Virus record (IMG/VR): IMGVR_UViG_3300007346_000184
Coordinates: 1-26,641 of that record
Reading direction: 5' to 3' (one strand)
From: a virus
Length of the DNA: 26,641 bases
Under the pieces are notes generated by a model. The model did not search any database and was not told where the DNA came from. It worked only from the letters and a program-made list of their open reading frames with translations. The position numbers and the translations under genes are program-made. Of the stretch, positions 4,334-23,269 are shown in pieces; the first letter of the stretch is position 1; each line of letters opens with the position of its first letter.

Positions 4334-4609
4334 TTAATCCATCCTCGGCTCAAAGCCCCCGGATGGCAGAGGCGCCCGCTCCAGGTGCTTGCGGATCGCC
4401 TCGAGGTTCTCGTTGATCCTGACAACCGTAATCAGCGTCCCAACCGTCAGAAGATAGGCGATGATGACGGCGACGTAGTAAGCCCAAAACTCTGATGAGT
4501 TTACGCCGTGCTTTTGATAGTTAAATGCTGCATAAACCATCAACGCGAGGAAAATAAAGTGCATCGCGGTCATCAGGTACGAATACAGCCGCGCAACTAT
4601 GTCGTTCAT
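4334..4609 (-). CDS. Small two-pass membrane protein, reverse strand
   Basis: A 91-residue protein with GGAGG six bases before its ATG. Two hydrophobic segments (about 11-29 and 43-64) are followed by a charged helix (RINENLEAIRKHLERAP) and a Pro/Gly tail. It probably sits in the inner membrane with the charged tail in the cytoplasm. The coding DNA is AT-rich for this window (23 G+C of 60 in 4501-4560). It lies downstream of the 4624-4836 gene in a two-gene reverse-strand unit placed between terminase and portal. No family is recognised; holin-like, superinfection-exclusion or other membrane roles are all open. A stem CCATCC/GGATGG (4339-4344/4361-4366) lies in its 3' end without a U-tract. 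Confidence 0.7.
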   Translation of the reverse strand: MNDIVARLYSYLMTAMHFIFLALMVYAAFNYQKHGVNSSEFWAYYVAVIIAYLLTVGTLITVVRINENLEAIRKHLERAPLPSGGFEPRMD

Positions 4610-4623
4610 ATCAAACCTCCGGG

Positions 4624-4836
4624 TTACGAAATAAGGGTGCCCAGCAAAACGGCACCAACAAACACAAGTGCCAGCGTCAGGTAGTTGACCTTGCGGTCTA
4701 GCGCCTGAATACGCTGCTGAATGTCTACCAGCAATTCCTTCTGCACTGCATGTGCGGTACCACCCCCACCCATTGGCGGCGGGGCTCCGTTTTCGAGCAG
4801 TGCCTTTTCAAGTTTGTCGAGTGGGTCTTCTGACAT
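4624..4836 (-). CDS. Small tail-anchored membrane protein, reverse strand
   Basis: A 70-residue protein with a strong GGAGGTGA ribosome site directly before its ATG. It has an acidic start (MSEDPLDKLEKALLENG), a short Pro/Gly stretch (PPPMGGGG), a coiled-coil-like helix (about 31-50, KELLVDIQQRIQALDRKV) and one C-terminal hydrophobic segment (about 51-69). The layout, coiled coil then membrane anchor, resembles XhlA-like small phage membrane proteins and the 66-residue protein at 9079. It is the first gene of a two-gene reverse unit with the 4334-4609 gene. Function unknown. Confidence 0.7.
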   Translation of the reverse strand: MSEDPLDKLEKALLENGAPPPMGGGGTAHAVQKELLVDIQQRIQALDRKVNYLTLALVFVGAVLLGTLIS

Positions 4837-4865
4837 GGCTCACCTCCACCCCGAAGTTTATGCCC

Positions 4866-7055
4866 ATGAATGAAACCATCGAAGTCGAGGTCGTTGACCC
4901 CGAAGCTGAGCAACGCAAGTTAGAGGAGCGCCTGCAAGCCTTTGGCGCTGGCCTCGCTGCTCAGCGCGATGAGTGGGTGCGTATGCGTTCGAGCTACGGT
5001 GCTGATAAGCGCTGGCGTGACGATTTGGACCAGTACGAGTCCAAAGACGCCGCCAACCGTTCAGCTAGCCAGATGATGGAGTCAGTCGAGCAAGGTTTCC
5101 CCATCACCAGCAACGGCGCCACCCCACATCGCTCGACGGTGTTTATCGGCATGACTAGGCAGAAGACCAACTCCGCCGAGGCGCGGCTGGCTGACATCCT
5201 GCTGCCAACCGACGACCGCAACTGGGGCATCGAGCCCACGCCCCAGCCCACGCTCTCCAGCATGGCCATGTCCAACGCCCAGGTGATGGACGTGAACACT
5301 GGCCAGCCAGTGCCAGCCAAACAGGTGGCTAAGGTCACGATGGACATCGCCCGCCAAGCTTCCAAGGCGATGGAGATCACCATCGAGGACCAGCTCACTG
5401 AGTGCGACTACAACGGCGAGGTGCGCAAAGTAATTCATGATGCTGCGGTGCTGGGCACTGGGGTACTCAAGGGATGCGTGGTCACAAACCGCGTGCGTAA
5501 GGCGTGGACCACCATGACCGACGCCTTTGGCGAAACCGTCCATAGCCTTGAGCTGGTGCAAGAGCTAAACCCGGCCAGCTACCGTGTTGACCCCCGTAAC
5601 GTGTGGCCCGACCCGGCGTGCGGCGAGAACATCCACAACGGCCGGGGTATCTACGAGCGCTCCCAGATGACGGCCAAGCAGGTGCGGGAGCTAGCCAAAC
5701 AACCCGGCTACATGCCCGAGCAACTGCGTAAGGTGCTCGAAGAAGGTCCCAAGCGCAGCGCCGTGCTGCAAGACATCGGCGAGGAAACGGAGCAAGACGC
5801 CTCGCGCGCCACCTTCGAGGTCTGGGAATACTGGGGCGAGGTGGATACCGAAGACCTCCGCGCCGCTGGCGTTGAGTGCGAAGACGATGAGCTGCGCGCC
5901 ATCAGCGCGTGCGTGGTGGTGATCAACTCGACGGTGGTCAAGGCTTTCCTGAACCCCATTGACGACGGCGATATCCCGTTTGACTTCTTTAACTGGGAGC
6001 GCGTGGCTGACTCGGTCTGGGGCTACGGCATCCCTTACCTGATGCGCAGCCAGCAGCGGGTGCTCAACGCTGCGTGGCGCCAGCTCATGGACAACGCCGC
6101 GATCAGCTCAGCACCCCAGATCGTGGTCAAGCCCGGGACGATATCCCCGGCAGACAAAAACTGGCAGCTCACCAGCCGCAAGATTTGGTTTGCCACCGAG
6201 GACGCCGACGACGTCCGTAAGTCGTTCACGACCTTTGAGTTCAACAGCCATCAGGCTGAGTTGGCAAACATCATTCGTATGGCTGCCGAGCTGGCCGACC
6301 AGGAAACCGGCGTACCCATGCTGATGCAGGGTGAGAAAGGCAGCGCCCCTGACACCGTGGGTGGCATGCAACTGCTGATGAACAACGCCAACGTGGTGCT
6401 GCGCCGCCTGGTCAAACAGTTCGATGACCAGGTCACCCGGCCGCAGATACGCCGGTACTACTACTTCAACATGATGCACAGCGACGACGCCAACATCAAA
6501 GGCGACTTCACTGTGGACGCCCGTGGCTCAAGCGCCCTGCTGATCAGAGACATTCAGAACCAAAGCTTCCTGAACCTACTGGCCGCTGGGGCCAACCCCG
6601 TCTACGGCATGTACCTCGATACCCAGAAGCTGTTTGAAAAAGCCCTGCAAGCCCAGCACATCGATCCGGCCGAGGTCTTTAAGCCCGAGGAAGAGATCGA
6701 GCAGATCAAGCAGCAGCAAGCCCAAGCCGCCCAACAAGGCCAGCAAGCTGACCCGAGGCTTCAGGCTGCACAGATACGTGCCCAGTCGGAGATGCAGCGC
6801 ACCCAGTTCCAAGCTCAGTCCGACATGGCTGAGCTGCAGACGCGCCAGCAGATCGCAGCGACCAACGCTCAACTGCGGATGCAGGAGCTGGCTATGCAGC
6901 GCGAGATCGAGATGCTGAAGATGGCCAACGAGCAGAATCTAACGCTTGAGCAGATCAAAGCCAAGTTGGCCGATACAGCGATGCGCGAACGCAGCCGCAA
7001 GGAGTTGTTTGCTGCCGAACAGCGCTTGAAGCTCGTTGCGGGATCGGGGATATAG
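4866..7055 (+). CDS. Portal protein (head-tail connector)
   Basis: A 729-residue portal, the dodecameric ring at the packaging vertex. Its place after the large terminase and before the scaffold, its length, and its central sequence (GMTRQKTNSAEARLADILLP, about 96-115) fit large podovirus portals. From about 610 to 720 it is a Gln- and Ala-rich helical region, suited to a portal barrel extending into the head. Start choice is uncertain: ATG codons at 4860 and 4866 are both possible, and I prefer 4866 because GAAG (4853-4856) is 9 bases away; the in-frame ATG at 4752 lies within the divergent gene and is unlikely. The stop TAG (7053-7055) is one base from the end of the convergent reverse-strand gene. 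Confidence 0.88.
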   Translation: MNETIEVEVVDPEAEQRKLEERLQAFGAGLAAQRDEWVRMRSSYGADKRWRDDLDQYESKDAANRSASQMMESVEQGFPITSNGATPHRSTVFIGMTRQKTNSAEARLADILLPTDDRNWGIEPTPQPTLSSMAMSNAQVMDVNTGQPVPAKQVAKVTMDIARQASKAMEITIEDQLTECDYNGEVRKVIHDAAVLGTGVLKGCVVTNRVRKAWTTMTDAFGETVHSLELVQELNPASYRVDPRNVWPDPACGENIHNGRGIYERSQMTAKQVRELAKQPGYMPEQLRKVLEEGPKRSAVLQDIGEETEQDASRATFEVWEYWGEVDTEDLRAAGVECEDDELRAISACVVVINSTVVKAFLNPIDDGDIPFDFFNWERVADSVWGYGIPYLMRSQQRVLNAAWRQLMDNAAISSAPQIVVKPGTISPADKNWQLTSRKIWFATEDADDVRKSFTTFEFNSHQAELANIIRMAAELADQETGVPMLMQGEKGSAPDTVGGMQLLMNNANVVLRRLVKQFDDQVTRPQIRRYYYFNMMHSDDANIKGDFTVDARGSSALLIRDIQNQSFLNLLAAGANPVYGMYLDTQKLFEKALQAQHIDPAEVFKPEEEIEQIKQQQAQAAQQGQQADPRLQAAQIRAQSEMQRTQFQAQSDMAELQTRQQIAATNAQLRMQELAMQREIEMLKMANEQNLTLEQIKAKLADTAMRERSRKELFAAEQRLKLVAGSGI

Positions 7056-7056
7056 G

Positions 7057-7845
7057 TTAGAAGTCGTCGGTTTTGATACTTACTTCCGGTTCAGGTGGAA
7101 CGGCTTTAACTTCTAGCGTCAACCCACCAGGGTAAAACTCAACGAGAGCATTCCTGAATTTCCAATTTGATTTCAGCCAATCAATATTGCGTGGCTTATC
7201 AGTCACGACAACGCTGTTGCTGTGGGGCAACCCCCATTTATTAATTAAAAAATCTATTGTCTGACGAGCGAGCTGCTGACGAACTTTTTCGTTCGCATCT
7301 TTCTCCCGCTGAGATCCGGTCGCCAAAAGGGGGATTATCGTTGAGGCGCTCGCTTCACACATGGAGATCGTGAACTTGTGCACCTTGTATTTTTCAAAAG
7401 TAACTTTATAGATCGCCTTTTGACCGAGCAGGGTTCCCGCCAACCCCACATCGCCGTCTGGCTTATAAACGAGTGCCGAACGTCTCATACCTCCTTTTGC
7501 AAATAGCCTCCCTTTGCAATCAGCACGGACGTCCTCAACCCACCGCGATTGCTCGCGCAACTCTTTTTCTTTTGGTTTCTCGTAGAAGGTCGAATTAAAC
7601 TTTGAGTGGAAATCGGAGCACCAGAACGGATGTCCCGGCCACAGACCTTTTATACCTGGGCTACGCCTTACCTGATCCCCCTCGTCAGTGAAAGGCTCGG
7701 GCAAAGGCGGGCGCGTTGGGTCGGTCTCTGGCATCACCCATTCACGCCCACGCACTGGGATCAAGAAGCCAGTGTCGCAATAAGCTAATACAACGCTCGA
7801 AGGGGCAAGCGCCAACAGGAAACCGACTAATGAAGCTCTTTTCAT
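7057..7845 (-). CDS. Exported four-cysteine protein, copy 1
   Basis: A 262-residue protein starting MKRASLVGFLLALAPSSVVL. I chose this ATG because it gives a textbook Sec signal peptide with likely cleavage after Ala21 (VLA before YCD); LAYC is not a proper lipobox. Four cysteines (23, 76, 110, 163) are kept in copy 2 and could form two disulfides in the periplasm. Shared motifs include DPTRPPLP, PGIKGLWPG, GDVGLAGTLLGQK, MCEASAS, GSQREKDAN and FYPGGLTLEV. The pattern TIDFLINKWGLPH followed by a beta-rich end resembles many small exported proteins of unknown role. It is expressed against the late genes, so it is probably a moron. Function unknown; host-envelope modification or exclusion of other phages is inference. 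Confidence 0.8.
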   Translation of the reverse strand: MKRASLVGFLLALAPSSVVLAYCDTGFLIPVRGREWVMPETDPTRPPLPEPFTDEGDQVRRSPGIKGLWPGHPFWCSDFHSKFNSTFYEKPKEKELREQSRWVEDVRADCKGRLFAKGGMRRSALVYKPDGDVGLAGTLLGQKAIYKVTFEKYKVHKFTISMCEASASTIIPLLATGSQREKDANEKVRQQLARQTIDFLINKWGLPHSNSVVVTDKPRNIDWLKSNWKFRNALVEFYPGGLTLEVKAVPPEPEVSIKTDDF

Positions 7846-7881
7846 ACCGCATTTATACCGCAGCCCCATGAGCGCAGCCAA
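7845..7881 (-). promoter_or_regulatory. Candidate promoter of exported protein copy 1
   Basis: On the reverse strand TTGGCT (complement of 7876-7881) and TATAAA (complement of 7852-7857) are 18 bases apart, matching 4 of 6 and 5 of 6 positions of the sigma70 consensus. A start 7 bases below the -10 box falls on the A of the ATG at 7845, and no clear ribosome site precedes that ATG, so the mRNA may be leaderless. The same arrangement is present in copy 2. Confidence 0.45.
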
Positions 7882-7909
7882 TAATTACGTCGCCCAGCTA
7901 TTAGGTTAG
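7868..7909 (+). pseudogene. Truncated 5' end of the 8717 gene left by the duplication
   Basis: The reading frame MSAANNYVAQLLG then TAG copies the first 11 residues of the gene at 8717 (MSAANNYVAQL) and then runs off the duplication junction. It marks the right edge of the first unit. It is probably not functional as a protein. Its DNA is kept perhaps because it holds the promoter of the reverse-strand gene. Confidence 0.75.
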
Positions 7910-8694
7910 AAGTCTTTGGCTTTGATATTTACTTTCGGCGCGACGGCTTCAACTTCCAGCGTCAACCCCCCGGGGTAAAACGTAACGACAGATTTCTTGA
8001 ACTTCCATGTGGACGACTTCCAACTATCGTTTAGTCGGGAACTTAAAGTCACTTGAAGGTCAACTTCACTGGTGTGAGGTGGACCCCATTTGTCAGTTAA
8101 AAAATCTATTGTTTGAGCAGCAAGCGTCTGACGGGCTTTGCGGTTTGCATCTTTCTCGCGCTGGGACCCCTTGGTGAGTAGGTTAATCACCTTTGAAGCG
8201 CTCGCTTCACACATGGTGATCGTGAATTTTTTCACCTTAGCTCGTTCAAAAGTAACATTGAAAAACGACTTTTGACCGAGCAGAGTCCCCGCCAACCCCA
8301 CATCGCCGTTTGGCGCATGCGTGAGCGCCGAAAGCTTCCAAGCACTCTCTCCGTCTGGCGTGTGGCTGCAATCAGCACGGACGCCGTTAAAGACCCCTAA
8401 TCGCTCACGCCGTGCGTGTTCTTCTTTTGACCCCCAGAAGCCATCAAAGTTTTTTTTGAAATCGACACACATGAGCTTCTGTCCCGGCCACAGACCTTTG
8501 ATGCCCGGGTGATGAAATACCTGACCCGGCTCATCAGTGAAATGGTCGGGCAAAGGCGGGCGCGTTGGGTCAGCCACCGGCATCCCCCATTCAGCTGGAT
8601 CCACTGCAACCGTGAGGCCGTAGTCGCAATAAGCTAATACAACGCTCGAAGGGGCAAGCGCTAATAGGAAACCGACCAATGAAGCTCTTTTCAT
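7906..8694 (-). CDS. Exported four-cysteine protein, copy 2
   Basis: A 262-residue paralogue of the 7057-7845 protein, of the same length, with an identical 24-residue N-terminus (signal peptide through YCD, except the next residue). Cysteines 23, 76, 109 and 162 match those of copy 1. The mature part is roughly half identical by eye: motifs DPTRPPLP, PGIKGLWPG, GDVGLAGTLLGQK, KKFTITMCEASAS, GSQREKDAN, TIDFLTDKWGPPH and FYPGGLTLEV are kept, while residues about 27-35, 80-120 and 195-225 vary. This is the copy whose upstream neighbour is intact, so it keeps the ancestral right-hand junction. Exported to the periplasm by inference; function unknown. Confidence 0.8.
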   Translation of the reverse strand: MKRASLVGFLLALAPSSVVLAYCDYGLTVAVDPAEWGMPVADPTRPPLPDHFTDEPGQVFHHPGIKGLWPGQKLMCVDFKKNFDGFWGSKEEHARRERLGVFNGVRADCSHTPDGESAWKLSALTHAPNGDVGLAGTLLGQKSFFNVTFERAKVKKFTITMCEASASKVINLLTKGSQREKDANRKARQTLAAQTIDFLTDKWGPPHTSEVDLQVTLSSRLNDSWKSSTWKFKKSVVTFYPGGLTLEVEAVAPKVNIKAKDF

Positions 8695-8730
8695 CCCGCA
8701 TTTATACCGCAGCCCCATGAGCGCAGCCAA
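8694..8730 (-). promoter_or_regulatory. Candidate promoter of exported protein copy 2, inside the 8717 gene
   Basis: TTGGCT (complement of 8725-8730) and TATAAA (complement of 8701-8706) are 18 bases apart on the reverse strand. The predicted start falls on the ATG at 8694. The -35 box lies within codons 3-5 of the plus-strand gene at 8717, so this promoter overlaps a divergent coding region. Confidence 0.45.
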
Positions 8731-9082
8731 CAATTACGTCGCCCAGCTATTTCTAGCCCGCGACCTCGCCCATCGTGCGCATCTGGGGACGTCGAGCTAC
8801 GCCCAGCACGTGGCGCTGAACGAGTTTTATCTGGGCATCGTCGACCATGCCGATGCCTTTGCCGAAGCCTACCAAGGCCAGTACAACGAACTATTGGATA
8901 TCCCGCTGCTGGATTCCGAGTACGAGGGCGAGATAGCCGACGTGCTCGAGCAGGTCATGGCGTGGATTGAAGACAACCGGGAACAGATATGCCCACGCGA
9001 ACTAAGCAGCCTGCACAACCTAATCGACGCAGCGGTCGAGCTGTTTCAACGAACACTGTACAAGTTAAGGTTTCTAAATTGA
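8717..9082 (+). CDS. DUF5856-like helical phage protein
   Basis: A 121-residue, all-helical protein. The layout AELFLARD-like start, AHRAHLGTSSYAQHVALNEFY (about 18-38), DHADAFAEAYQGQY and the C-terminal AVELFQRTLYKLRFLN matches, from memory, the phage family DUF5856, whose His and Glu positions recall ferritin or Dps-like bundles; its function is unknown. The ATG at 8717 has no good ribosome site. Its 5' end overlaps the candidate promoter of the reverse-strand exported protein and was partly copied to 7868-7909. Its stop TGA overlaps the TTG start of the next gene. Confidence 0.8.
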   Translation: MSAANNYVAQLFLARDLAHRAHLGTSSYAQHVALNEFYLGIVDHADAFAEAYQGQYNELLDIPLLDSEYEGEIADVLEQVMAWIEDNREQICPRELSSLHNLIDAAVELFQRTLYKLRFLN

Positions 9083-12222: not shown

Positions 12223-12250
12223 GAAAAAGAGCGCCCTTCGGGGCGCTCAC
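12220..12250. terminator. Bidirectional terminator between convergent genes
   Basis: GAGCGCCC (12229-12236) and GGGCGCTC (12241-12248) form a perfect 8-bp stem with a TTCG loop. On the reverse strand a TCTTTTTCTT tract follows, making a good intrinsic terminator for the gene ending at 12247, whose stop codon (12247-12249) touches the stem. On the plus strand the following tract (ACTTCTTT) is weaker. Confidence 0.85.
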
Positions 12251-13164
12251 TTCTTTGGCTCAAACGGTTGACTCGGGTCTCGCCCTGACGACCAGACTTT
12301 GGGCTTTTGTTCTTCAGTGGGTTCTTCCAACGGCTCCGCAGCTTCATCCTCAACCTCTGTAACGGGAGCCTCTGTAGCTTCATCCCCAGCTTCCGCAGGC
12401 GGCGGTTCAAGCGGTTGATCTAATTCGGGGATACCAAAATAATCAGGATCACCTGGCTCGATCGGCGATAGTAACGATTCGGGGTCTGAGGGGTCAGAGT
12501 CATCTCCGTCCGTTTTGGGGAACAAGTCGCTCAGGCGAATATCGAGGGGGTAATCATCAATATTTGCGGTCAACTTCGCAATTGACTTGATGTCACTCGC
12601 TGCCATCCCAAGCCGACCATCATGGGGCCACCCATTAAGAAACATCTTCCCCTTGAAACCGTGCGCTCTAGCGTAGTCCCCAAGGTATTTGCCTAATCTA
12701 TATCCAGGTCCAATCTGCACATGATCAAACGTTGTCTCAAACAATACTTCAACAAATTTAACCCTCTCAGGTCGACCGTAGGCGCCCGTTTTTCTGAATA
12801 TTGTTTTTTCTGACGAAATAGTGACAAGGCTCGCTAAGTTGCTATTTAAGACCTTGTCGATCAAGTCCTCGATACTAAATTTAGTCAGCTCTGCTGTGGC
12901 CAACCACCAAACCAGGTGCACGACGATCTCAGCTTCGTCTTTAGCCTGCTGCGCATCCAGGAGTTGCCGGTTCTTCTTTTCCAGCTCCTCACGCTCAGCA
13001 TCGAATGTTTTGTCTACCGACTCCCGAAGAGCCTTGTATTGCTCGTAGGACAAACCGGACCCGATTTTGGAGGGGGATGTGGCGTCGCGCGCGCGCTGTT
13101 CAAGCGCCTGCCATTCTTCGTCAGCTACCTTTTTTAGAGCCCACCACTCAGGACTTTTTTTCAT
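12247..13164 (-). CDS. Reverse-strand accessory protein, unknown function
   Basis: A 305-residue protein with GGGGA 6 bases before its ATG. Residues about 1-75 are charged and helical, with a coiled-coil-like part (KTFDAEREELEKKNRQLLDAQQ). A hydrophobic WW-containing helix (EIVVHLVWWLATAEL, about 79-93) and a mixed alpha/beta region (about 94-195) follow. From about 195 it is an acidic, Pro- and Glu-rich tail ending in FEPKK, probably disordered. No signal peptide or clear membrane segment is present, so it is likely cytoplasmic. It interrupts the virion operon on the opposite strand and is probably moron-type cargo. I recognise no family. Confidence 0.7.
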   Translation of the reverse strand: MKKSPEWWALKKVADEEWQALEQRARDATSPSKIGSGLSYEQYKALRESVDKTFDAEREELEKKNRQLLDAQQAKDEAEIVVHLVWWLATAELTKFSIEDLIDKVLNSNLASLVTISSEKTIFRKTGAYGRPERVKFVEVLFETTFDHVQIGPGYRLGKYLGDYARAHGFKGKMFLNGWPHDGRLGMAASDIKSIAKLTANIDDYPLDIRLSDLFPKTDGDDSDPSDPESLLSPIEPGDPDYFGIPELDQPLEPPPAEAGDEATEAPVTEVEDEAAEPLEEPTEEQKPKVWSSGRDPSQPFEPKK

Positions 13165-14402: not shown

Positions 14403-16441
14403 GAGCCGTGCCTCCGGTCCGCTACGACCTTATTCGTTTAGGCGGCGGGCTGGATCAAGTCACTCCGGCGCTCTCACTCCCCTCGGGGATTGCTCGACGA
14501 GCTGCTAATTTTGAGTGCTCGGTCAATGGCGGCTACACCCGTATCAGTGGCTACGAGCGCTTTGATGGGCGCCCTCGCCCAAGCGATGCGATCTACACCC
14601 TGCTGGCGGTGACCTTCTCGGGCACTGTCGCGGTGGGTGATACGTTGGTCGGTGCCACCAGTGCCGCCTCGGGGTACGTGATTGCTGTGACCGACAGCAC
14701 GATTGCGGTCACGGCGACGGTGGGTACCTATTTAGAGGGCGAAGACCTCAATGTCTCGGCTACTGCGCAAGCCAACTTGGTCCAGGTGACCGGTATTAGC
14801 TCCGACGGTCTGCTGGATGCGTCCTACAAAAACTTGGCGGCCGACTACTACCGCGCTTCCATAACGGCAATCCCCGGCTCGGGGTCGATTCTTGGGGTTT
14901 GCTACTACAACGATGTGGTATTCGCATTTCGGAACAACTCTGGGGGCACCGCGGCTGATCTTTACAAAAGCACAGCCACCGGGTGGACTCAAGTCACACT
15001 GCCGAAAGAAATATCTTTTGGAACAGGTACGGCGGAAATAAGCGACGGCGACACGGTCGACGGCGCGACAAGTGGTGCCAGCGCTACCGTTGCCCGGGTC
15101 GTATTAGAGACCGGGACGTGGGGCGCAGGTACAGCGACTGGCAGGTTAATTCTCACCGGAGTCACCGGTACTTTTCAATCTGGGGAAAACCTTCAGGTCG
15201 GCGCAGCCGTAAAAGCGGTAAGCACCAGCACCGTTACCCAAATATCATTTCTACCGAACGGTCGGTTTGAAACCGTCATTGCCAACTTTGGCGGCGGCAC
15301 AACCAACTACAAGGTCTATGGCTGCGATGGGGTAAACCGGGCGTTTGAATTCGACGGCACCACGCTGGTACCTATTAGCAGCGGGATGGCCACAGACACC
15401 CCTGAGCACATCTCGTTTCACAAGCAGCATCTGTTTTTGAGCTTTGGCGCCAGCCTGCAGTTCAGTGCCTTGGGCGACCCCTACCAGTGGACGCCCCTGC
15501 TGGGCGCCGGTGAACTGGCGATGAACGCCCCCATTACCAATCTGCTCACCCTACCCGGTGATCAGACCTCGGGCGCTCTGGCTGTTTACACCAGGCGTGA
15601 CACAAACGTGCTTTATGGCACCAGCTCGGCAGACTTCAGCCTAGCCACCCTGAACTCAGGGACTGGCGGTCTGGCCTACACGGCGCAAAACATGGACGTG
15701 GCTTACGTGCTGGACGATCGAGGCGTGATCTCCCTTGGCACGGCGCTGAGCTTCGGAAACTTTTTACCGGCGTCGCTGACCATGAACATCAACCCGTTCG
15801 TGGCCAGCAAGCGTGCCCTGGCCTGTGCCTCATCGGTCCAACGTGAAAAGGGTCAGTACCGGGTTTATTTCAATGACGGTACCGCCCTTTACGTGACGAT
15901 CGTCAACGGCAAAGTGCTTGGCTCGATGCCGATGCAATTTGTCAGCCCGGTGCTGTGCTTTGCCGAGGGCGACTCAAGTACAGGTCAGGCGCGGCAATTC
16001 TTTGGCTCGACCGAGGGCTTCGTCTACGAGATGGATGTCGGCTCCAGTTTTGACGGCTCGCCTATCGCTGCCAACTTGAACCTTATCTACAACGCCGTGA
16101 ACTCACCCCGCGTACTCAAGCGCTTCAGGCGCGCCAGCGTCGAGATGACTGGCGACAGCTACGCCGAGATTCAGTTTGCCTATGAACTGGCGTACTCAAG
16201 CGCCTACATGGAGCAGCCCAGCGAATCGGTTTACACGACCGATTTGCGTTCAAGTTTCTGGGACGACACCACGTGGGACAACTTTGTCTTTGACGCGCAG
16301 GAGGTCAGCCCCACCGAAGTCGAGGTTGTCGGCACGGGCGAGAACATCGGCATCCGAATCTCTAGCGAATCTGACCTGTTCCGGCCATTTACGGTCAACA
16401 GCGTCATCCTCCACTACACACCCCGTAGGGGCATTCGATGA
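14399..16441 (+). CDS. Tail nozzle protein with two inserted beta modules
   Basis: A 680-residue beta-rich protein that follows the adaptor and precedes the fibre, as nozzle or tail-tubular B proteins do. The start (RYDLIRLGGGLDQVTPALSLPSG) and the recurring G-x-DG-x-x-Y strands fit a propeller-like nozzle. Two similar modules interrupt it, at about 73-130 (TFSGTVAVGDTLVGATSAAS) and about 206-283 (GTAEISDGDTVDGATSGASA), each with a later GTFQSGENL-like strand (YLEGEDLNV in the first). The C-terminus (RRASVEMTGDSYAEIQFAYEL, then FTVNSVILHYTPRRGIR) looks conserved. It starts in an ATGA overlap and ends in one with the fibre gene. Confidence 0.8.
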   Translation: MRAVPPVRYDLIRLGGGLDQVTPALSLPSGIARRAANFECSVNGGYTRISGYERFDGRPRPSDAIYTLLAVTFSGTVAVGDTLVGATSAASGYVIAVTDSTIAVTATVGTYLEGEDLNVSATAQANLVQVTGISSDGLLDASYKNLAADYYRASITAIPGSGSILGVCYYNDVVFAFRNNSGGTAADLYKSTATGWTQVTLPKEISFGTGTAEISDGDTVDGATSGASATVARVVLETGTWGAGTATGRLILTGVTGTFQSGENLQVGAAVKAVSTSTVTQISFLPNGRFETVIANFGGGTTNYKVYGCDGVNRAFEFDGTTLVPISSGMATDTPEHISFHKQHLFLSFGASLQFSALGDPYQWTPLLGAGELAMNAPITNLLTLPGDQTSGALAVYTRRDTNVLYGTSSADFSLATLNSGTGGLAYTAQNMDVAYVLDDRGVISLGTALSFGNFLPASLTMNINPFVASKRALACASSVQREKGQYRVYFNDGTALYVTIVNGKVLGSMPMQFVSPVLCFAEGDSSTGQARQFFGSTEGFVYEMDVGSSFDGSPIAANLNLIYNAVNSPRVLKRFRRASVEMTGDSYAEIQFAYELAYSSAYMEQPSESVYTTDLRSSFWDDTTWDNFVFDAQEVSPTEVEVVGTGENIGIRISSESDLFRPFTVNSVILHYTPRRGIR

Positions 16442-18906
16442 GCAACAGCTACTACGTCCACGCCACTTTCCCAGCACCCAACAGCCCAGGCTCCTCGGCC
16501 TCAATGCGCAACGAGCTGGAGCTGATTACCGACGGATTTGACAAACTCCCTACCCTATCGGGTAACGGCTACAAGGTCGCCATCGTTAACGCAGGCGGCA
16601 CGGCTCTGATCGCAAGCAACGCGCTGCAGGGTCTGACCATCACCACCAGCACCCTTACCTCCAACACGCTCACTGGCAACACCATCACAGGTGGCTCAAT
16701 CAACAACACCCCAATTGGGGCGAGCACAGCGTCCTCGGGTGCGTTTACGACGCTGACCGCCAGCTCCACGGTCAACTTGGGGTCCTCGGTCACACTGGGT
16801 GGTGGCGCGATCAACAACACCACAATCGGCGCCACTACCCCTTCCACCGGCGCGTTCACAACGCTGAGCGCAACTTCGGGCATAACCGGCGGTCTGACGG
16901 GCAACGTCACAGGCAATGTCACGGGCAATCTGACCGGCAACGTCACAGGCAATGTCACGGGCGACGTGACTGGTAATGTCACCTCCAGCGGAAGCTCGAC
17001 TTTTAACAACGTCACCATTACGGGTGGCTTGGACATGGACGCCGGAACCACGGCCACCATTACCAACTTAAGCGCCCCTGTGAATAACGGGGATGCTGCC
17101 ACCAAGCTATACGTCGACACGGCTGACGCGACGAAGCTACCCCTAGCCGGCGGCACCATGTCGGGCGACCTGAACATGGGCAGCAATACGGTGACCGGGC
17201 TAAAAGCCCCGTCTGCCACCGACGACGCCGCTACCAAAACCTACGTCGACACGGCGGACGGCACCAAACTTTCCTTAGGTGGCGGCACCATGACCGGCGC
17301 CATCGCTATGGGCAGCAACAAGATCACCGGCCTCGGCGACCCCAATGACGCCGGTGATGCTGCCAACAAAGGCTACGTGGACACCGCGGTGCAGGGGCTG
17401 GACGCCAAAGCATCGGTTCGCGTTGCCACAACAGCCAATATCACCCTGTCGACTGAGCAAACCATTGACGGCGTCGCGGTCGTTGCGGGTGACCGAGTCC
17501 TGGTTAAAAACCAAACAGATGCAGAGGAAAACGGTATCTATGTTGCCTCGGCCACTGCCTGGTCGCGCGCTTCGGACGCCAATACGTGGGCCGAGTTGGT
17601 ATCGGCGTTCGTATTCGTCGAGTCCGGCACCGCCGGCGGCGACAACGGCTTTGTCTGCACGGTCGATGCTGGGGGGACGCTAGGCACCACCGACGTCACT
17701 TGGGTGCAGTTCTCCGGCGCTGGGCAAATTACCGCTGGCGCTGGGATGACCAAGTCGGGGAACACGCTGAACGTGGCAACTGCCGACACTGGCCGGATTG
17801 TGGTGAATGCTGATTCCATCGACCTAGCTGGCAGCATTGTCACGGCCGGTACCTACCGATCGGTCACGGTTGACGAATACGGCCGAGTCACTGCAGGGAC
17901 CACCCCAACAACGATCTCCGGCTACGGCATCTCGGACGCGTACACCAAATCCGAAGTGGATACGGCGGTCGCGACGCGGCTGGCCTTAGCCGGCGGCACC
18001 ATGACCGGTGCTATCGCCATGGGCAGCAACAAAATCACCGGACTGGGAGCGCCCGCCGCAACCGACGACGCAGCGACGAAGGGTTATGCCGACAGCTTGG
18101 TCGGCGGCTTCTTGAGCACCAGCGGTGGCACCATGAGCGGTGCAATCGCCATGGGTAGCAACGCCATCACCGGTTTGCCCACCCCAACGGCAGCCGACGA
18201 AGCAGTGCGCAAGGATTACGTTGACGCTGTCGCTGGTAGCGCCACCGCCGCTGCGGCATCAGCAACCGCAGCCGCCACATCGGCAACCAATGCTGCAGCC
18301 TCTGCGACAAACGCGGCAACCTCGGAAACCAACGCCGCGTCGTCGGAGACCAATGCCGCCACCTCGGCAACCAACGCATCGAACTCGGCGTCTGCCGCGG
18401 CTACGTCGGCCTCAAACGCTTCGACCTCAGCCTCTTCGGCCAGCACCAGCGCGTCCAACGCTTCCACGTACGCATCCAACGCGTCAACGTATGCGTCCAA
18501 CGCCTCGACCTCAGCAGGCAACGCGGCCACATCAGCGACCAATGCCGCAACTTCTGAGACCAACGCTGCCTCTTCTGCGACAGCCGCTGCTAACTACCCC
18601 CGCGTCACGTCCTACACCACCAGCACCATCATTAACCCAAACTTCGCGACGACGGACATGTACATCCTCACCGCACTGGCGAGCAACATCACGATCAATG
18701 CGGCCACAGGGATGAGCGATGGCGACAAGCTGCTGTTTCGCTTTCTCGACAACGGGACTGCTCGCACCATCACATGGAACTCGGTGTACGTCGACGCCAA
18801 CGCCTCAAAACCGACTTCAACGGTAGCAACAAAAACGACCTACGTAGGAATGGTTTACAACGCCGGGCTTTCACGTTGGGACGTGATTGCCGTTATTCAG
18901 GAGTAA
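16438..18906 (+). CDS. Tail fibre with heptad stalk
   Basis: An 822-residue, Gly/Ser/Thr/Ala/Asn-rich fibre. Order: an N-terminal attachment part (about 1-60); Thr-rich beta repeats with TGNV units (about 154-182); four copies of the GGTMxGxIxMGSNxITGL...ATDDAATKxYVD module; a middle domain with VRVATTANITLSTEQTIDG and GDRVLVKNQTDAEENGIY (about 325-380); 17 perfect seven-residue SATNAAT-type repeats (601-719); and a C-terminal beta domain (about 720-822). The heptads are like those of lambda Stf and should form a trimeric stalk. It starts in ATGA overlap with the nozzle, and its AGGGG ribosome site lies in a small CCCC/GGGG hairpin (16421-16431). Confidence 0.9.
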   Translation: MSNSYYVHATFPAPNSPGSSASMRNELELITDGFDKLPTLSGNGYKVAIVNAGGTALIASNALQGLTITTSTLTSNTLTGNTITGGSINNTPIGASTASSGAFTTLTASSTVNLGSSVTLGGGAINNTTIGATTPSTGAFTTLSATSGITGGLTGNVTGNVTGNLTGNVTGNVTGDVTGNVTSSGSSTFNNVTITGGLDMDAGTTATITNLSAPVNNGDAATKLYVDTADATKLPLAGGTMSGDLNMGSNTVTGLKAPSATDDAATKTYVDTADGTKLSLGGGTMTGAIAMGSNKITGLGDPNDAGDAANKGYVDTAVQGLDAKASVRVATTANITLSTEQTIDGVAVVAGDRVLVKNQTDAEENGIYVASATAWSRASDANTWAELVSAFVFVESGTAGGDNGFVCTVDAGGTLGTTDVTWVQFSGAGQITAGAGMTKSGNTLNVATADTGRIVVNADSIDLAGSIVTAGTYRSVTVDEYGRVTAGTTPTTISGYGISDAYTKSEVDTAVATRLALAGGTMTGAIAMGSNKITGLGAPAATDDAATKGYADSLVGGFLSTSGGTMSGAIAMGSNAITGLPTPTAADEAVRKDYVDAVAGSATAAAASATAAATSATNAAASATNAATSETNAASSETNAATSATNASNSASAAATSASNASTSASSASTSASNASTYASNASTYASNASTSAGNAATSATNAATSETNAASSATAAANYPRVTSYTTSTIINPNFATTDMYILTALASNITINAATGMSDGDKLLFRFLDNGTARTITWNSVYVDANASKPTSTVATKTTYVGMVYNAGLSRWDVIAVIQE
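16900..16986 (+). repeat. 12/36-bp repeats coding TGNV units in the fibre
   Basis: A 27-base sequence at 16900-16926 recurs exactly at 16936-16962, giving a 36-bp unit made of three 12-bp TGNV/TGNL codon blocks. The tract encodes seven TGxV-type repeats. It is coding repeat DNA, not a CRISPR array. Confidence 0.85.
17149..18234 (+). repeat. Four GGTM...KxYVD modules in the fibre
   Basis: The codons for GGTM begin at 17149, 17281, 17992 and 18124. Each leads into MGSNxITGL and a (D/E)A(A/V)xKxYxD end, about 40 residues per module. The first two and last two are adjacent (132 bases apart in each case), and a domain of unrelated sequence separates the pairs. Such modules in other fibres mark trimeric beta segments and are hot spots for exchange. 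Confidence 0.8.
18238..18594 (+). repeat. Seventeen 21-bp heptad repeats in the fibre stalk
   Basis: Residues 601-719 are seventeen consecutive seven-residue units of the type S-A-x-N-A-x-x without phase break (for example SATNAAT, SETNAAS, YASNAST). At DNA level the unit is 21 bp with variable third positions. The number of units can change by slippage or recombination without breaking the frame. Confidence 0.88.
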
Positions 18907-22349: not shown

Positions 22350-22856
22350 ATGGCAATTTTTGAACCAGCCTTTGACCAAATGCTCAAAAACGAGGGTGGC
22401 TACGTGCTGCACGACGTGGCGGGCGACCGGGGCGGGATGACCTACGCGGGGATCGCCCGCAATATGAACGCGGACTGGGCTGGCTGGGAATTGATCGACC
22501 GCAAGGAGTTCAGCTCGGAGTTGACGGCCATGGTGCGCGACTTTTACCGAGACGCCTATTGGCGACCGATCCGGGGGGATGACCTACCCCAAGAAATCGC
22601 CGAGTCGATCTTTGACTTCGGCGTGAACTCAGGCACCCGCACCGCAGTGAAGCTGGCCCAGTTGGTAGTAGGTTCCCAGCCCGACGGCGTGCTCGGCCCC
22701 AAAACCGTTGAAGCGCTAGCGGCCATGGACGGCGATTCGTTCAAAAAGTCCTATGCCCTTGCCAAGGTCGCCCGCTATGCGGCCATTTGCAACAGAAACC
22801 GCACCCAGTCGAAATTTCTGCTGGGCTGGATCAACCGGACCCTGAAGTCACTATGA
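22350..22856 (+). CDS. Endolysin, GH108 lysozyme family
   Basis: A 168-residue muramidase-type endolysin that would cut peptidoglycan at lysis. AGGA is 5 bases before the ATG; a longer in-frame extension to 22101 lies inside two other genes and is rejected. The GH108 catalytic motif is MLKNEGGYV with Glu15 as likely acid, followed by DRGGMTYAGI (26-35). The middle has FYRDAYWRPI and ESIFDFGVNSG, and the C-terminal part has the PG_binding_3 signature QPDGVLGPKTVEAL (about 110-125). No signal peptide is present, so release should depend on a holin. Its stop overlaps the next start (ATGA). Confidence 0.93.
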   Translation: MAIFEPAFDQMLKNEGGYVLHDVAGDRGGMTYAGIARNMNADWAGWELIDRKEFSSELTAMVRDFYRDAYWRPIRGDDLPQEIAESIFDFGVNSGTRTAVKLAQLVVGSQPDGVLGPKTVEALAAMDGDSFKKSYALAKVARYAAICNRNRTQSKFLLGWINRTLKSL

Positions 22857-23269
22857 ACCTACTTGGCATTGGATCAATCGTTGAGTCCGTCGGCAAAGTA
22901 GCCGGTGACCTCATCACCACGGACAAGGAACGGCTGCAGCTTGCCATTGAAAACCGCAAGCTCGACCAGGCGATGGACCTCGCGCAAATCGAGGTCAACA
23001 AAGCTGAGGCGCAGCACAAGTCGGTGTTCGTCTCCGGCTGGCGCCCAGCTATCGGGTGGATTGGCGCTGCTGCCCTCGCCTATCAATTCTTGATCTATCC
23101 AATGCTTGGCTGGGTTTGGTCCCTGCTGCAAGCCAAGGGCTGGGTGCCGGCAACCCTGACACCGCCGCCGCTGGTCGATGCCGACCAACTGTGGGTGATC
23201 CTGTCGGGGATTTTGGGCATCGCTGGTATGCGCAGCTTTGAGAAGTCCAAAGGGGTGGCAGCCAAATGA
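22853..23269 (+). CDS. 3TM-type holin (Holin_3TMs family)
   Basis: A 138-residue protein with an ATGA overlap to the endolysin, so the two are coupled. The N-terminal half is amphipathic and helical (DKERLQLAIENRKLDQAMDL, about 24-43); the conserved stretch NKAEAQHKSVFVSGWRPAIGWIG leads into membrane segments at about 66-92, and another is at about 112-126, with LRSFEKSKG-like MRSFEKSKGV at the end. This is the layout of Holin_3TMs proteins, also found in gene transfer agents. A likely role is pore formation that frees the endolysin. A longer frame from 22787 lies inside the endolysin gene. Confidence 0.85.
   Translation: MNLLGIGSIVESVGKVAGDLITTDKERLQLAIENRKLDQAMDLAQIEVNKAEAQHKSVFVSGWRPAIGWIGAAALAYQFLIYPMLGWVWSLLQAKGWVPATLTPPPLVDADQLWVILSGILGIAGMRSFEKSKGVAAK

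Follow-up and report, generated by a model that had tools for sequence, protein, structure and literature searches.

An accessory insert in a phage virion operon holds a tandem antisense pair of genes for putatively exported four-cysteine proteins

A podovirus-like virion operon from a metagenome is interrupted by two tandem reverse-strand genes, A and B, which are probably an exported antisense moron pair, a horizontally gained accessory cassette duplicated in tandem. The window, meaning the whole stretch analysed, is a linear fragment of 26.6 kb (26,641 nt; IMG/VR virus record IMGVR_UViG_3300007346_000184) whose plus strand encodes the terminase large subunit, an SU10-type portal, a DUF5856 gene, a scaffold-like gene (so labelled from position and composition only), the major head protein and tail genes. 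The initial annotation had placed the pair inside the virion operon between portal and scaffold genes; the operon setting stands, and the flanks can be refined to the portal stop (7055) and the DUF5856 ATG (8717), with the scaffold-like gene lying beyond (Table 1).

Table 1. Coordinates of the insert and its neighbours in the window, and state of the same junction in more distant relatives
Feature	Position or contigs	Strand	Basis or remark
Portal gene (SU10_portal, phrog_332)	4752..7055	+	Family match; left neighbour of insert
Tandem unit 1 (gene A and upstream region)	7053..7902	-	BLAST against unit 2
Gene A (P0001), predicted 262-aa exported four-cysteine protein	7057..7845	-	ORF and alignment with B
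Upstream region of A, promoter-like TTGGCT-N18-TATAAA	7846..7902	-	Approximate sigma-70 matrix, rank 12
Relic of DUF5856 gene start, ATGAGCGCAGCCAATAATTACGTCGCCCAGCTATTAGGTTAG, read as MSAANNYVAQLLG and a stop	7868..7909	+	Compare 8717-8751; upstream of A
Tandem unit 2 (gene B and upstream region)	7902..8751	-	BLAST against unit 1
Gene B (P0002), predicted 262-aa exported four-cysteine protein	7906..8694	-	ORF and alignment with A
Upstream region of B, same promoter-like sequence	8695..8751	-	Matrix rank 13; overlaps first DUF5856 codons
DUF5856 / phrog_858 gene	8717..9082	+	Family match; small gene right of insert
Junction empty	L022, L032		More distant relatives
Junction with quite different genes	L009, L012-L014, L018-L021, L023-L029, L034	+	

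The two units align by BLAST at 73% over 860 columns, with a unit size of about 849 bp and ungapped repeat blocks 843–852 bp apart, and gene A is convergent with the portal gene, their stop codons lying 1 nt apart. Proteins A and B are 60% identical, with residues 1–24 the same and Cys 23, 76, 110 and 163 aligned, and the DNA of the two copies differs by about 27% of bases. BLAST, open reading frames and alignment thus bear out the original description of two 849-bp units, each with a reverse-strand gene for a 262-residue protein with a signal peptide and four aligned cysteines.

The way the copies differ shows that A and B are real genes, because every gap in their codon alignment is a multiple of 3, the C-terminal half carries the mark of purifying selection, and a frame would rarely stay open by chance (0.065% of trials when 219 substitutions were placed at random). 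Over the whole gene dN is 0.32 and dS 0.48. From codon 129 onward, 39/90 synonymous vs 69/306 non-synonymous sites have changed (Fisher p = 2e-4), as purifying selection on this half would produce, whereas in codons 25–128 the counts are 21/69 and 87/240, with dN/dS near 1 (dN > dS is not significant, p = 0.39). The halves differ in dN/dS at p = 0.009, a contrast between boundaries picked post hoc from the data and based on a single sequence pair, and uneven evolution of the two halves is therefore best regarded as suggestive.

By reading, the shared N-terminus, MKRASLVGFLLALAPSSVVLA-YC, is a signal peptidase I-type signal, and the call of export is this reading. A lipobox with Cys at +1 is absent from SVVLA-YC, which lacks L-[AS]-[GA]-C because a Tyr, not Gly, Ala or Ser, precedes Cys23; on this ground we rejected A and B as phage surface lipoproteins of the Ltp, Llp or Bor type. 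The products are likely exported and periplasmic, since isolated phages with related portals mostly have Gram-negative hosts (Pseudoalteromonas, Pasteurella, Stenotrophomonas, Roseobacter-group), and they are probably disulfide-bonded.

Upstream of each gene lies the same promoter-like sequence. With an approximate sigma-70 matrix applied to 53,182 positions, the two sites rank 12 (A) and 13 (B); a strict consensus promoter scan listed neither. In both copies the candidate -10 ends 6 nt upstream of the ATG and a Shine-Dalgarno sequence is absent there, so the mRNA may be leaderless or have a very short leader. The upstream DNA differs at 2/57 nt vs 63/177 synonymous sites (p = 3e-7), which, from this comparison of two copies, indicates constraint or local gene conversion. 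In a crude consensus scan, neither A nor B had a terminator-like site on the minus strand at its 3′ end; an own terminator is not part of every moron description.

The copy search in related phages that the initial annotation had proposed found both copies on two IMG/VR contigs from other metagenome data sets, L002 (100%) and L003 (99.98%), and an empty site in three more, L006, L007 and L008, whose flanks on both sides are 97–99% identical to the window. There the junction reads ...GGGTATATAG-C-ATGGCCGCTGCAGGAAACTACGTC..., the portal stop and the ATG of the following gene being 1 bp apart. Because near-identical phages have this empty site, the A/B cassette is a presence/absence accessory insert; its GC content is 0.508 vs 0.603 for the portal gene, 0.555 for DUF5856 and 0.601 for the scaffold-like gene. 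The portal–DUF5856 junction of about 20 relatives at greater distance is either empty or occupied by varied plus-strand genes, and among the relatives compared only this phage carries genes there on the reverse strand. In this phage group the junction is a site of variable cargo. One relative carries at the same site an unrelated tandem paralogue pair with a DUF4214 domain, 42% identical (L028:629-1681 and 1697-2707).

Further genes of the window were observed in passing. Another reverse-strand gene in the virion region, 12247-13164 (305 aa, GC 0.51, without family match), marks a second accessory site; L008 has only its last 20 residues in common and then diverges, the contig ending soon afterwards, and the site in L010 spans only about 130 bp. 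Between terminase and portal, 4334-4609 and 4624-4836 on the minus strand encode two small membrane proteins of 91 and 70 aa, each gene preceded by a clear GGAGG site, 96 and 99% identical in the relative L006, and with a sub-cutoff Pfam match only. The tail-fibre-like gene 16438-18906 contains short tandem repeats (12/36-bp and 21/42-bp) at 16893-16982 and 18271-18581.

The edges of the insert bear on how it formed. Its left edge falls exactly at the portal stop. On the right, positions that mismatch the empty-site phages are clustered in 8720-8734 and thin out after that, and here the first six DUF5856 codons read MSAANN in the window vs MAAAGN in the empty-site phages. The empty-site form looks ancestral, because its Gly is common to every other relative compared, and the DUF5856 start of the window looks to have arrived with the cassette. 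The relic of a DUF5856 start upstream of A is, by its sequence, the scar of the tandem duplication, which would therefore have occurred at a portal/DUF5856 junction. A puzzle of timing arises in that the copies differ by about 27%, whereas the flanks differ by only about 2% from the insert-less L006–L008. Most simply, duplication and divergence of the pair would have taken place in another lineage, from which recombination brought it into this one as a unit; alternatively, part of one copy may have been replaced by a diverged homologue.

As the initial annotation had stated, the family is not a recognised one: searches of Pfam, PHROGs, NCBIfam and PADLOC, known exclusion or defence families included, matched neither A nor B. 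The profile search and structure prediction it had suggested yielded no family match and, with AlphaFold2, pLDDT values of 37 and 36 and no usable fold, Foldseek returning no significant match. A weak PDB profile match to COMMD1 (E = 0.004) was rejected, as it came from a two-sequence profile, concerns a eukaryotic cytosolic protein and has no common cysteines in the aligned stretch. Among isolated phages, A had no match at E up to 10 and B only mycobacteriophage stretches at E > 1; plasmids, searched with A only, gave none. Two pattern scans of bacterial genomes, which required near-exact short peptides and could let distant relatives escape, found nothing, and protein, alignment and two degenerate-motif scans of viral contigs returned the same two contigs only, plus L062, a chance motif match with unrelated ORFs at the site. 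A pattern of exported phage proteins with a K-[YWF]-G-x-P motif, tested on all retrieved loci, picked out only A and B and one spurious reverse frame in L013. The kind of locus is already known; the novelty lies in its protein family and in a tandem pair that has been retained while diverging unevenly.

A PF00589 tyrosine integrase is present in three of six relatives searched (G001, G002, G004), with no match in the other three, and none was recognised in the window, itself a fragment. The phage group is likely temperate, because relatives carry integrases, and for the same reason A and B would probably be expressed in the prophage state. We propose that each gene has a sigma-70-type promoter of its own and does not depend on the late operon for its transcription, and that its product would leave the cytoplasm by the Sec pathway, with signal peptidase I-type cleavage after SVVLA, and would be held stable in the periplasm by at most two disulfides. 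The mature proteins would then bind a host-envelope component and alter it to the prophage's benefit, the conserved C-terminal half serving as a common scaffold and the fast-changing N-terminal half recognising different targets; two such specificities, we suggest, would explain why both copies were kept.

The superinfection-exclusion protein gp15 of HK97 is membrane-bound. P22 SieA is likewise described as an inner-membrane superinfection-exclusion protein (HK97 gp15/P22 SieA: PMC11436027, PMC10883804). Both resemble A and B in that moron- or prophage-expressed exclusion is one function proposed for the pair, but A and B look periplasmic and have no family match in common with them. Ltp of Streptococcus phage TP-J34 is an exported superinfection-exclusion lipoprotein in whose mature form changes at eight positions accompanied a changed phage spectrum (PMC3952083). 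Ltp resembles the pair in being an exported protein encoded by a phage of a temperate group, and the spectrum shift is what the idea of a variable N-terminal half needs; it differs as a lipoprotein of the lysogeny module in a phage of a Gram-positive host, whereas A and B lack a lipobox and matched no family. Similar in arrangement are moron loci such as STMMW_20121 of ST64B, a prophage accessory locus antisense to the lytic genes with its own promoter (PMC7067206): A and B are likewise antisense to late genes, preceded by a promoter-like site, dispensable, odd in base composition and exchangeable. Unlike such loci they are two tandem paralogues of an orphan, putatively exported family. The earlier interpretation as exported accessory cargo of an unrecognised family, with two related products kept, holds, and its suggestion of exclusion or envelope-modifying proteins is plausible, but "undescribed system" was too strong, since antisense, low-GC, presence/absence genes in the virion region are a textbook moron arrangement (PMC7067206).

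Our confidence in an exported antisense moron pair does not extend to an exclusion function. Exclusion of related phages is the role we would put first, and otherwise another conversion trait, yet this assignment is tentative and open to real doubt. A lysogenic-conversion trait other than exclusion, such as surface adhesion, resistance to envelope stress or the inhibition of an enzyme of the host or of a competitor, is quite possible, since the same anatomy fits, although nothing specific favours any one of these and no family match points to them. It is unlikely that A and B are infection-cycle factors (for lysis, envelope remodelling or blocking secondary infection in the lytic cycle) and not prophage genes: the window is without lysogeny genes and three of the six relatives searched are without an integrase match, but the pair is antisense to late genes with its own promoter-like sites, a holin-type gene lies away from it at 22787-23269, and near-identical phages lack it, so it is dispensable. 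More unlikely still is the boldest form of the proposal, in which A and B act as a pair, by heterodimer or by two specificities, and represent a new class of secreted exclusion or envelope proteins, each with one conserved half as scaffold and one diversifying half for recognition, that moves from phage to phage into the post-portal cargo site as a tandem unit already assembled.

Neutral carriage of the pair, as a recently inserted passenger with drifting copies, is improbable and already weakened; dN about equal to dS in the N-terminal half and confinement to a few nearly identical contigs would fit drift, whereas the lack of any stop or frameshift despite about 27% divergence, the apparent purifying selection on the C-terminal half (p = 2e-4) and the held upstream and signal sequences argue against it. 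There is next to no likelihood that A and B are an assembly artefact or virion proteins, to which only their location among virion genes points. The artefact, a concern of the initial annotation, is excluded because L002 and L003 independently hold both copies and these differ by ~27%; virion proteins were rejected on the reverse-strand orientation relative to the late operon and the N-terminal signal-like sequence, both contrary to expectation.

A and B form a two-member orphan family of apparently exported proteins that is diverging unevenly, and near-identical phages with and without this one cassette offer a clean natural experiment. In this phage group the portal–DUF5856 junction deserves mining as a cargo site. 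If A and B do exclude phages, exclusion proteins, most of which are lipoproteins or bound to membranes, would gain a soluble periplasmic type.
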